A DNA stretch of 32,836 nucleotides from Maribacter sp. (lineage in GTDB: Bacteria > Bacteroidota > Bacteroidia > Flavobacteriales > Flavobacteriaceae): assembly GCA_023141835.1 (NCBI GenBank), contig JAGLKG010000211.1:1-32836 (forward strand), in the 5' to 3' direction. The notes below the pieces were generated by a model. It saw only the letters and a list, made by a program, of their open reading frames with translations. It did not search any database and was not told the origin of the DNA. Position numbers and translations under genes: made by a program. How positions within the stretch are numbered: the first letter of the stretch is position 1; each line of letters starts with the position of its first letter. Below are positions 23,160 through 25,728 of this stretch, piece after piece.

Positions 23160-24740
23160 ATGAAAGCAATAAAAAACATTGGCCTTATCCTTTTTTTAAT
23201 AGGTCTTGGCATATTTACCTCACTAACATTCCTTGGAAAGTTTCAGGTTGATCAGAACATCTTGGATCAGGTCATTTCAGAAAAAGGAATTAAAAGTGAG
23301 GTTTTCATCAAAGAACTGCAAAATAACCTTGTTGGCAAGGAGTTCAGTGGTATGCTATCATTTTCTACCAAGATCGTCACTGCTTTGAAAATGGCAAATG
23401 CGCAACACCGAAAAAACAAGGAATATAAAAAAGTGACCTATATAAACCCCAATGATATGGCTGCCTACATTGGAAAAAAATCAGGTAGTGGTTTTATAGC
23501 CAATAATAAAGGGTTAATGTGGTTTCTGACCTTTGGGCTGGGCATTCTTGGATCTCTTATGTTCATTATCCCAAACGTTGTTTTATTAGGCAAAAAAGGG
23601 ATTAAAAACGACGGCATCTATCTAGAAAATGCAACCAATAGAGGGTGGATCGCCTGGTTGGTCTTCATCTTCCTGGTTTCATTTTATCTCATTCTTTATT
23701 TCCGGTCCGAATACGCCGTGAATTGGACCTACCTGGTAGACCCAATCAGCGAAGGTATTAGTGGCAACCCAGCGGGACATTGGTTTGTTTATGGATTCAT
23801 GTACTGTGTGGTTATGACGGTAATGGCCATCCGCATGTATATCAAATACAGGCACAATATGTACCAAATGGTGCGGACGACATCGGTATTGTTCTTTCAG
23901 ATTATATTTGCCTTTTTGATTCCAGAAATCATGGTACGCCTACAAATGCCCTATTACGATTTCAAAAATGCTTTCCCCTTGGATTATGATTTCTTTTTTA
24001 GCTGGAATTTAAAAGAGCTTTTGGCCAGCGGTGGCATTGGATTGTTCATTCTAGTATGGGGCATTGTGTTGACCTTGATCATAGTACCCGTTATGGTTTA
24101 CTTTTTTGGGAAAAGATGGTATTGTTCATGGGTATGTGGTTGCGGCGGACTAGCCGAGACTTTAGGAGATCCGTATAGACAACACTCAAGCAAATCGCTT
24201 TTTTCTTGGAAAGTTGAGCGATGGCTTGTTCATGGGGTATTGGTCTTCGCAGTAACCATGACTTTAATGACATTATATAGTTTCTTCTCTGAATCAAGCA
24301 CTGTTTTGGGCATAAAAACACAAAGTGTTCAAAATACATATAGCCTTTTAATCGGGGCATTTTTCGCCGGAGTGATAGGCACAGGTTTCTATCCCATTTT
24401 CGGGAACAGGGTTTGGTGCAGGTTTGGATGCCCATTAGCGGCCTATTTAGGTTTTGTACAACGATTTAAATCCCGCTTTAGAATTACCACCAATGGTGGC
24501 CAATGCATTTCATGCGGCAACTGTTCTACCTATTGCGAGCAAGGTATAGACGTAAGGGCCTATGCCCAAAAAGGTGAAAACATTGTTCGGTCAAGCTGTG
24601 TAGGTTGTGGTATTTGCTCTGCAGTGTGCCCTAGGGGAGTTCTAAAACTGGAAAATGGACCATTAAAAGGGCGAATAAATCCAACGCAGGTGCTTTTAGG
24701 CAATACTGTGGATTTAATGGAATTGATGAATAAAAAGTAA
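23160..24740 (+). CDS. membrane polyferredoxin, NosR/NapH/CcoG-like 4Fe-4S protein
   Basis: A 526-residue integral membrane electron carrier. Hydrophobic segments are near residues 7-25, 118-143, 163-181, 206-224, 240-258, 292-316, 357-375 and 396-412. Cys motifs of the NosR/NapH type follow: YCSWVCGCGG (Cys322, 326, 328) and WCRFGCP (Cys420, 424). Two 4Fe-4S clusters are coded by CISCGNCSTYC (449-459) and CVGCGICSAVCP (480-491). The N-terminal 30-115 loop between the first two helices is likely periplasmic. The first motif lacks the Pro of CxxxCP. It pairs with the FAD oxidoreductase upstream (9-base gap). No nos, nap or cbb3 oxidase genes are in the window, so the electron acceptor is not known; CcoG is another relative but differs in layout. 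Confidence 0.85.
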   Translation: MKAIKNIGLILFLIGLGIFTSLTFLGKFQVDQNILDQVISEKGIKSEVFIKELQNNLVGKEFSGMLSFSTKIVTALKMANAQHRKNKEYKKVTYINPNDMAAYIGKKSGSGFIANNKGLMWFLTFGLGILGSLMFIIPNVVLLGKKGIKNDGIYLENATNRGWIAWLVFIFLVSFYLILYFRSEYAVNWTYLVDPISEGISGNPAGHWFVYGFMYCVVMTVMAIRMYIKYRHNMYQMVRTTSVLFFQIIFAFLIPEIMVRLQMPYYDFKNAFPLDYDFFFSWNLKELLASGGIGLFILVWGIVLTLIIVPVMVYFFGKRWYCSWVCGCGGLAETLGDPYRQHSSKSLFSWKVERWLVHGVLVFAVTMTLMTLYSFFSESSTVLGIKTQSVQNTYSLLIGAFFAGVIGTGFYPIFGNRVWCRFGCPLAAYLGFVQRFKSRFRITTNGGQCISCGNCSTYCEQGIDVRAYAQKGENIVRSSCVGCGICSAVCPRGVLKLENGPLKGRINPTQVLLGNTVDLMELMNKK

Positions 24741-24838
24741 GCAAAACTATATGACATATAATACTAAGCTTATCTCAGTGACCTTGTATAACATATTCCA
24801 GTCCAATTAATAACCCAAAAGACAAATTGATAAAATAT

Positions 24839-24860
24839 TGTCACGCTGAGCTTGTCGAAG
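24839..24860 (+). repeat. left 22-nt inverted repeat of the GIY-YIG element
   Basis: Starts TGTCAC and contains CTGAGCTTGTCGAAG. It matches the reverse complement of 25192-25213 at 20 of 22 positions; the two mismatches are at positions 6 and 7. The GAGCTTGTCGAAG core is a repeat type common between genes in Bacteroidota genomes. It lies 15 bases before the GIY-YIG ATG. Confidence 0.9.
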
Positions 24861-24875
24861 CGCAATCCATTAGCA

Positions 24876-25211
24876 ATGAGATTTTACTACGTTTACATTT
24901 TACAATGTTCCGATAGCACTTACTATACAGGTATGACCAATAACCTAGAAAGAAGATTTGTCCAACACAATGCAGGATATAAAAAGAATGGTTATACATT
25001 TAACAGAAGACCTGTAAAGTTAAAATGGCATGTACACTGTACCAACCCATCTGAAGCAATTAAAATTGAAAAACAAATTAAAGGCTGGTCACATAAAAAG
25101 AAAGAAGCTCTAATAAATGAGAATTGGCAAGACCTTATAGATTTCTCTAAAAACTATACAGAGTTCGGACGTCCTGACAATAGAGATTTGTCTTCGACAA
25201 GCTCAGACTGA
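24876..25211 (+). CDS. GIY-YIG nuclease bounded by inverted repeats
   Basis: A 111-residue single-domain GIY-YIG endonuclease of the UPF0213/URI1-like group. The GIY part is YYVYILQCSD and the YIG part is YYTG (16-19); the catalytic Arg lies in NLERRF (Arg26/27) and the metal-binding Glu in IEKQIKGW (Glu65), so it should be active. It starts at the ATG at 24876; a TTG at 24852 inside the left repeat would add eight residues coded by the repeat. The C-terminus SSTSSD and the TGA stop are coded by the right repeat, so the gene and repeat have fused. The neighbours run in the same direction but the gaps (135 and 28 bases) and the repeats suggest an insertion rather than an operon member. Confidence 0.9.
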   Translation: MRFYYVYILQCSDSTYYTGMTNNLERRFVQHNAGYKKNGYTFNRRPVKLKWHVHCTNPSEAIKIEKQIKGWSHKKKEALINENWQDLIDFSKNYTEFGRPDNRDLSSTSSD

Positions 25212-25213
25212 CA
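25192..25213 (-). repeat. right 22-nt inverted repeat of the GIY-YIG element
   Basis: Plus-strand CTTCGACAAGCTCAG then ACTGACA; the reverse complement of the left repeat with two mismatches. It codes the last five codons plus the stop of the nuclease gene (the preceding Ser codon overlaps its edge). Confidence 0.9.
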
Positions 25214-25239
25214 TTTTTTAATTTCAAACGTCATAGCAA

Positions 25240-25728
25240 ATGGCATCAAAATTCACATATATTATCTTCATCTTTCTAGGTCTATTGACCATCCAAAAAG
25301 AAAAAGAAAAAAAATACTACAAAGACTACTATGTATCCGGCCAACTCAAATCAGAGGGTTGGCTAGAAAATGACCTAAAAAAGGGGTACTGGAAATTCTA
25401 TTATGAAAGTGGCAGAATTTCAGCGCAAGGACATTACGAAAACAATAAAAGAGAAAAGTATTGGTATTTTTACGCCCTAAATGGAATTAAATCCAAGGAA
25501 GGAAATTATGTCCATGGGCAAATGACCAAATGGTGGTTGTTCTATGATGCCAAAGGCAAGATCAGTCATAAATGTCAATTAAGCAATGGAAATAAAGATG
25601 GGTACTGTCTCAAATATAAGAACGAAGAACTGGTCTCGGCCGAAAAATATCGAAATGGAAAAAAAATCAAGGAATGGTTCAATTTTGTTGATTTTCAGCG
25701 AGAAAACAAACTATCCGATTTAAAATAA
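25240..25728 (+). CDS. YwqK/MORN-repeat-like protein
   Basis: A 162-residue protein with an N-terminal hydrophobic segment (about residues 5-19) that may be a signal peptide or anchor. It has three or four repeats of about 20 residues with the form G-W/Y-x-F-Y-x-x-G-x-x-x-x-x-G-x-Y, for example KKGYWKFYYESGRISAQGHY and REKYWYFYALNGIKSKEGNY, typical of the MORN_2/YwqK antitoxin family. In Bacteroidota such proteins are mostly not true antitoxins, and no toxin gene is near. The stop overlaps the next ATG by one base (TAATG), so it is coupled to the GT2 gene. Confidence 0.82.
   Translation: MASKFTYIIFIFLGLLTIQKEKEKKYYKDYYVSGQLKSEGWLENDLKKGYWKFYYESGRISAQGHYENNKREKYWYFYALNGIKSKEGNYVHGQMTKWWLFYDAKGKISHKCQLSNGNKDGYCLKYKNEELVSAEKYRNGKKIKEWFNFVDFQRENKLSDLK

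Follow-up and report, generated by a model that had tools for sequence, protein, structure and literature searches.

A GIY-YIG nuclease gene bounded by palindromic repeats in Maribacter sp.: a candidate counterpart of the RAYT/REP arrangement

Bacterial genomes contain thousands of short hairpin-forming repeats, and a family of GIY-YIG nuclease genes may spread repeats of this kind. The question is raised by a 375-bp unit of Maribacter sp. in which a small nuclease gene is enclosed by two inverted repeats: do gene and repeats belong together, and what would such a unit do? The window, i.e. the whole stretch of DNA that was analysed, comprises 32,836 nucleotides of contig JAGLKG010000211.1 (assembly GCA_023141835.1).

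The repeats and the gene between them

Table. Features of the window (upper rows) and nuclease loci with their repeat types by contig of the window's genome (lower rows)
Feature	Position	Strand	Remarks
Upstream neighbour, ferredoxin-type (ccoG-like) gene	23160..24740	+	presumably ccoG; synteny, site marker
Segment between the ccoG-like and MORN-like genes	24741..25239	.	synteny
Left REP-like palindrome	24839..24862	+	head outwards; basis: sequence, covariation
Left head	24839-24843		TGTCA
Left stem	24844-24847 / 24859-24862		CGCT / AGCG
Left inner part	24848-24850 / 24856-24858		GAG / CGA; possible tandem G.A
Left loop	24851-24855		CTTGT
GIY-YIG nuclease gene	24876..25211	+	111 codons/aa; Pfam PF01541, 64.4 bits
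Right REP-like palindrome	25190..25213	-	head outwards; basis: sequence, covariation
Right head	25213 down to 25209		TGTCA
Right stem, inner part and loop			GTCT/AGAC; GAG/CGA; CTTGT
Downstream neighbour, MORN-like repeat protein gene	25240..25728	+	presumably a MORN repeat protein; synteny, site marker
Nuclease gene or fragment	contig C126		repeat type A
Nuclease gene or fragment	contig C59		repeat type C on one side, unclassified repeat on the other
Nuclease gene or fragment	contig C313		repeat type P
Nuclease piece, 50 aa	contig C23		repeat type B

The initial annotation had placed inverted 22-nt repeats with 20 of 22 identical positions around the gene. They were confirmed at 24839-24860 (+) and 25192-25213 (-), but reach further inwards, to 24862 and 25190. 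The identity of 20/22 stood as well, but the two supposed mismatches are really covarying stem positions, CG/CG on the left and GT/AC on the right. Both repeats are one small palindrome, 5'-TGTCA-NNCT-GAG-CYTGT-CGA-AGN'N'-3', with the head outwards. Among 185 distinct clade-A copies, i.e. repeats of the window's type from the loci compared, NN and N'N' were pairable (G-T allowed) in 178, compared with a mean of 53 and a maximum of 74 upon shuffling. The other repeat types covaried too, with 116/121 (shuffled maximum 67), 18/23 (10), 31/32 (17) and 52/54 (33). Tandem G.A pairs may form between the inner GAG and CGA. In a nearest-neighbour DNA fold the clade-A repeat was no more stable than its shuffles (z of -0.02 and -0.21), a result that counts against the reading we favor below; one perfect type-P palindrome had an unusual stability with a z of -4.4. 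We base the hairpin of the clade-A repeat on covariation in place of thermodynamic folding.

The 13-mer core of the repeat occurred twice within two mismatches in the window, where 0.34 copies were expected. A search of the window's genome for exact matches (4.0 Mb, 632 contigs, 83% complete) located the core at these two places only, i.e. exact core matches revealed no dispersal of the repeat in its own genome. The proposal that the core is scattered through Bacteroidota held for some relatives but not for this genome: the clade-A 22-mer pattern was present in 32 of 149 Flavobacteriaceae genomes with 145 copies, while a backward control gave none.

The enclosed gene was confirmed as that of a GIY-YIG nuclease. 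Its protein exceeded the curated cut-off of PF01541 (22.6 bits) by far and matched no other Pfam family. In 33 aligned proteins Y17 and E65 were invariant, and Y7, G19 and R27 were conserved at 90% or more; we take Y7, Y17, R27 and E65 to be the catalytic Tyr, Tyr, Arg and Glu of the GIY-YIG fold. As had been noted before, the right repeat supplies the end of the gene. It codes for the last residues SSTSSD and has the TGA stop (25209-25211) inside TGACA. The stop was within the right REP in 13 of the 22 clade-A loci that have one, with tails readable in 31 of the 57 loci given. An alternative TTG start in the left repeat is present at 24852, yet it is probably not in use since the proteins of relatives align from the ATG at 24876. 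A structure model (pLDDT 84.6) was confident to about residue 96, with low confidence for the partly repeat-coded tail of residues 97-111. The nearest solved structures by sequence were PDB 1zg2 (E 2.5e-11) and 1ywl (E 1e-8). The median dN/dS was 0.11 for 40 usable pairs among 20 sequences of relatives, after omission of pairs whose dS reached 2.5 or for which there was no estimate; judged by this ratio the gene is under purifying selection.

Association of repeats and nuclease genes

In a scan for inverted repeats that was free of any motif, an inverted repeat with a score of at least 14 flanked the gene in 30 of 56 relatives taken from named genomes, compared with 2 of 523 shifted positions, and TGTCA heads emerged at many clade-A loci. 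We then used a structural repeat finder (head [TC]GTC, stem, GAG...CGA), which was drawn up after the inverted-repeat scan and 27 loci had been seen, many of them later scored by it. Three of 108 genes were dropped because of short flanks. Hairpins on both sides were detected for 75 of 105 nuclease genes, the window's included, versus 0 of 575 shifted positions, and a hairpin within 300 bp for 90 of 105 versus 24 of 575; the finders demand [TC]GTC by construction, hence these counts are no independent test of the head type. Both nearest repeats pointed head-outwards in 53 of the 75 genes. Several genes kept as misses had other GTCA-type palindromes by eye.

A check free of the finder's post-hoc design was a gene-blind search of 388 Flavobacteriaceae genomes for two clade-A cores with outward heads and 305-365 bases between them. 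The initial annotation had considered that the repeats might flank random genes equally often. Yet, 11 of the 12 pairs found, the window's among them, enclosed a GIY-YIG nuclease gene, and the twelfth was a tandem repeat array. Five heads-in control pairs enclosed a nuclease in two cases and had one just outside in another, which counts against the reading favored below. Some nuclease match was present in 31 of the 32 genomes with the clade-A 22-mer and in 75 of the 117 without it, and at least 18 of the 145 copies were within 500 bp of a nuclease, both among the matches listed. Two loci, L265 and L298, carried clade-A repeats in tandem arrays of alternating orientation, resembling the REP arrays called BIMEs.

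The type of repeat tracked the clade of nuclease. We distinguished by patterns of our own making the loop types A (CYTGT-like), B (long, TG...TAT) and C (CGNAGT-like) as well as the near-perfect GTCAT palindromes of type P. On a nuclease tree of 131 proteins and 95 columns, with 52 of 126 inner branches open, 94 labelled rows required 4 changes of type, the minimum being 3. All six labels, 'other' and 'none' included, required 15 changes versus a shuffled mean of 81, and none of 200 shuffles was as low. The window's genome itself combines four different repeat types with nuclease genes or fragments. No repeats were found at its two long GIY-YIG ORFs (339 and 455 aa), and a small GIY-YIG gene on contig C400 had no repeat score.

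Some further loci are described for themselves. On contig C313 type-P palindromes stood on either side of a second GIY-YIG gene (L005, 1447-1981) with one in-frame stop: a single one to its left, three to its right. A nuclease clade with a YTGST-like motif (L143, L058, L128, L132, L138, L156 and L158) had no scored repeats; several members displayed other palindromes by eye, e.g. GTCATTGAGTGATTC...GAATCGTACCGAAATGAC in L143, where two identical nuclease copies stand in tandem. Another GIY-YIG clade (L065, L064, L153, L157, L165, L170, L173 and the second gene of L073) was likewise devoid of scored repeats and amounts to a natural negative control.

In Pseudomonadota 108 of 247 genomes had a match to an l5-type nuclease. 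Among the best matches 15 of 30 loci had repeats on both sides and 24 of 30 a repeat within 300 bp, compared with 2 and 43 of 223 controls, respectively. A looser palindrome finder, with hits at 43 of 59 loci on any side and 21 on both against 128 and 14 of 330 controls, gave way to the stricter one. The type-P pattern, which is of the CGTC type, was present in 82 of the 247 genomes with 0 in the backward control. As anticipated in the initial annotation, the repeat load correlated with the nuclease: genomes with a close nuclease (E of at most 1e-17) had the pattern in 40 of 57 cases, those with weaker matches only in 22 of 51 and those with no match in 20 of 139. Twenty or more copies were reached in 20 of the 57 genomes versus 5 of 190. 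The odds ratio for REP presence and a close nuclease in the 247 genomes was 8.3, and 20 for 20 or more copies; these counts and ratios are raw genome counts that ignore kinship. Against the favored reading stand the 20 genomes with the pattern and no nuclease match and 17 of the 57 genomes with a close nuclease from which it is absent. Many type-P repeats fit the form of CGTC-tagged REPs, i.e. a [C/T]GTC head, an AT-initial stem of 8-9 bp, a loop of 4-5 and a CCA tail, while other flanking repeats of Pseudomonadota, e.g. those with GAG...CGA inside, are outside that form. In L187, L192, L200 and L288 a second, CTAAGTTAGCGCTTATGCCC-like repeat lay outside the CGTC palindromes and beyond the unit ends, as if these units were nested in another repeat family.

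The Y1 transposase genes, which belong to RAYT systems, served as controls. In 30 loci from chosen repeat-bearing genomes, 20 of them with enough flank, none of the 20 had repeats on both sides and 1 had a repeat on one side. A Y1 match was absent in 8 of 12 chosen clade-A-bearing Flavobacteriaceae genomes, and the Y1 matches of the window's genome were on contigs C601 and C373, away from the window's contig. Y1 genes were present in 16 of 17 chosen Pseudomonadota genomes, a finding against the favored reading; therefore, an argument from absence alone does not exclude a RAYT in this phylum. It is the unflanked Y1 genes that disfavor a RAYT as hidden mobiliser.

In Actinomycetota 13 of 149 genomes had matches, all weak except the query's own, which again counts against the favored reading. 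Support is thin, and we make no claim for that phylum. A nuclease relative in a Nocardioidaceae MAG (L063) was flanked by AGGTTGGTCGAGCCYGTCGAGA, with GAG...CGA.

Sites with and without the unit

An empty site lacking the whole 375-bp unit, as asked for in the initial annotation, was found in the same-genus genome G029. Here, the ccoG-like and MORN-like genes nearly abut with neither a nuclease match nor a clade-A repeat between them, and the sole hit of the finder is within the ccoG-like coding sequence. For this survey the neighbouring glycosyltransferase served as the anchor, and the 30 genomes matching it best were compared: the ccoG-like gene was upstream in 26, and 17 had the three neighbours together. 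Among those 30, a nuclease match at the site was confined to the window and to L221, where the nuclease is decayed and has its right repeat. In five relatives (L014, L018, L025, L052 and L059) the window's site had the gene or remnants of it together with one or more clade-A repeats; no relative with the nuclease but without repeats was found there.

Clade-A genes occupied nine gene neighbourhoods in our grouping. In a DNA tree of 47 rows the neighbourhoods changed 11 times, with a minimum of 8 and a shuffled value of 26.4, which shows that the genes were partly inherited by site and counts against the favored reading. Sites 3, 5, 8 and 9 needed one change each, and several sites are stable across genus-level distances. 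The six rows of site 1 were scattered with 5 changes, as few as in 134 of 500 shuffles. A single site-1 clade was nevertheless not rejected (p-AU 0.14). For this reason we do not claim independent insertions at site 1, and G029 may have lost the unit instead of preserving the state before insertion.

Type P gives a clearer signal of movement than the window's site. Eight pairs of type-P copies at unrelated sites had a common sequence of 326-382 bp only, three of the pairs being within one genome (G309, G344 and G274). In the best pair (88.7%) homology extended from GTCATTCC to GGAATGAC; in the others it halted inside a repeat or approximately 14-26 bp beyond. In Pseudomonadota the repeat-bounded unit that is all some copies at unrelated sites have in common is about 355 bp long, whereas L177/L179 and L189/L278 had their neighbourhoods in common as well. 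In 114 mutually non-independent pairs, homology ended within 3 bp of a head in 67 of 155 scorable cases and within 10 bp in 78. Because both copies carry one repeat family, such stops are to some extent expected; what is informative is the lack of any common sequence beyond them. The 87 repeat-bounded units with a median of 396 bp showed no target-site duplication above shuffled pairs, a further result against the favored reading.

Explanations and comparison with known systems

Taken together, we favor as probable the view that the window holds a GIY-YIG counterpart of RAYT/REP, a minimal REP-type element that would spread its repeats by way of cleavage. The parallel to REP/RAYT on a different fold, suggested at the outset, is supported. 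In this unit the small nuclease gene would sit between two palindromes of its own, [T/C]GTCA heads outwards. The nuclease would most likely recognize the conserved head and hairpin of its own repeat family when the repeat strand is single-stranded or extruded, and would nick or cut it at the head. Starting from the cut end, repair or replication could then copy the repeat, repeat pairs or the whole unit elsewhere. Recognition is suggested by co-evolution. The pairing of nuclease clade with repeat family and the covariation within the hairpins are visible in the sequences. Cleavage is suggested by the GIY-YIG fold, and copying by the units in common and a repeat load that tracks the gene; the unit-only copies at unrelated sites, the empty site and the purifying selection are likewise read from sequence, while binding, cleavage and copying by the nuclease as well as present-day movement are what we infer. 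The mechanism, proposed by analogy to TnpA-REP, is the best-supported one. With a slight leaning only, we extend this to a bacterial class of mobile DNA that relies on a GIY-YIG nuclease alone, with about 350-400 bp, one gene and [T/C]GTCA palindromes. In Pseudomonadota the CGTC-type REPs, and in Bacteroidota the TGAGCYTGTCGAAG, GAGCGCAGTCGA and TTCGAGTG...TATCGAGAA repeats, would be its non-autonomous offspring.

Could the gene spread only itself, with REPs as target and not as cargo? A free-standing homing endonuclease might cut REPs or REP pairs and be inserted through the REP arms by gene conversion. GIY-YIG is a homing-endonuclease fold, homology stops at REPs, several nuclease copies adjoin additional REPs, and L134, an l5-type relative and not the window protein, weakly matches a homing endonuclease model and, below cut-off, a group I intron endonuclease model. 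We nevertheless regard homing as unlikely because the empty site of G029 is without a clade-A repeat, the window's genome offers no exact core copy as a target beyond the two of the unit, and a REP load rising with the nuclease is not needed by pure homing.

Still less probable is a domesticated nuclease that resolves or trims REP cruciforms for the host, its expression being regulated by REPs that spread otherwise. Several sites and copies, unrelated flanks, decayed copies and empty sites are element-like and not what housekeeping predicts, and the Y1 genes lacked REPs on both sides, even though their presence in most of the chosen repeat-rich Pseudomonadota genomes would suit a role in maintenance, as would the partly site-stable inheritance, the purifying selection, the stop codon within the REP and very weak PDB matches to the structure-specific Slx1 nucleases (E 0.18). 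Hardly any weight falls on REPs and a mobile nuclease gene merely landing in the same intergenic gaps. REPs are indeed plentiful in some genomes, with up to 201 exact pattern matches in a REP-rich one, but none of the 575 shifted controls had hairpins on both sides, the repeat type is specific to the nuclease clade, both exact cores of the genome are here, nearly all gene-blind pairs hold the nuclease and the two long GIY-YIG ORFs of the same genome are without repeats. Passive co-location was rejected on the shifted controls, the gene-blind pairs and the Y1 controls.

Among known systems, the closest structures by sequence are those of UPF0213 and small GIY-YIG proteins (1zg2 and 1ywl), listed as hypothetical proteins; some GIY-YIG clades of our tree are without a scored repeat. 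Free-standing GIY-YIG homing endonucleases have the fold of the catalytic domain in common with the window protein, which differs by a GIY-YIG match alone in Pfam and by its repeat-bounded unit. A classical insertion sequence would show target-site duplications, which the 87 units did not. No title or abstract opening among the literature matches listed, which cover few subscription papers and no bioRxiv preprints, links GIY-YIG genes to REPs; in the parts available, 'nuclease' occurs 0 times in the REP survey PMC12306157 and 'palindrom' 0 times in the GIY-YIG survey PMC1564403.

The RAYT/TnpA-REP systems (REPtrons, REPINs) combine GTAG-tagged REPs with an HUH Y1 enzyme and, according to the available text of PMC8266576 and PMC3733652, resemble the window's unit by a small enzyme gene between inverted short palindromes with an unpaired 5' motif, by dispersed repeats, by cognate families of enzyme and repeat, and by palindromes that are both perfect and internally mismatched. 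In our data the enzyme gene between inverted cognate palindromes is seen in the window and the dispersal outside the window's genome. The enzyme differs, GIY-YIG here and HUH Y1 (PF01797) there, and so does the head, [T/C]GTCA instead of GTAG: the flanked gene of the window matched PF01541 and no Y1 transposase, and the motif-free scan gave TGTCA heads in place of the GTAG type at many clade-A loci. By enzyme and head the unit is not a member of the RAYT/REPtron family; an alike way of working is compatible with these differences. Moreover, according to the part available of PMC6006769, transposition of REPtrons as whole units is not apparent, whereas here copies of some units lie at unrelated sites.

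CGTC-tagged REPs were described from five phyla in 2013, include dRS3 and RPE-4/RPE-6, and 'apparently lack a dedicated transposase' (Di Nocera, PMC3733652). Many type-P repeats beside Pseudomonadota nucleases match the form given in the available text of that paper, which contains no association with a transposase, while here GIY-YIG genes are flanked. The window's clade-A repeat, with its TGTC head and a stem of 4 bp, possible tandem G.A and one G-C pair, is related to but distinct from CGTC-tagged REPs. Position, phylogeny, copy number and common units now tie CGTC-tagged REPs to a specific enzyme family, and the GIY-YIG nuclease may be their missing partner. If true, this would account for several short repeats that are common in the genomes of Bacteroidota and Pseudomonadota, and such elements would, to our knowledge, be among the smallest self-moving elements. 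REP-type systems would then have arisen at least twice on unrelated enzymes, and the nuclease unit would be the non-homologous twin of RAYT/REP, alike in its way of working but built on an unrelated enzyme and a different head motif.
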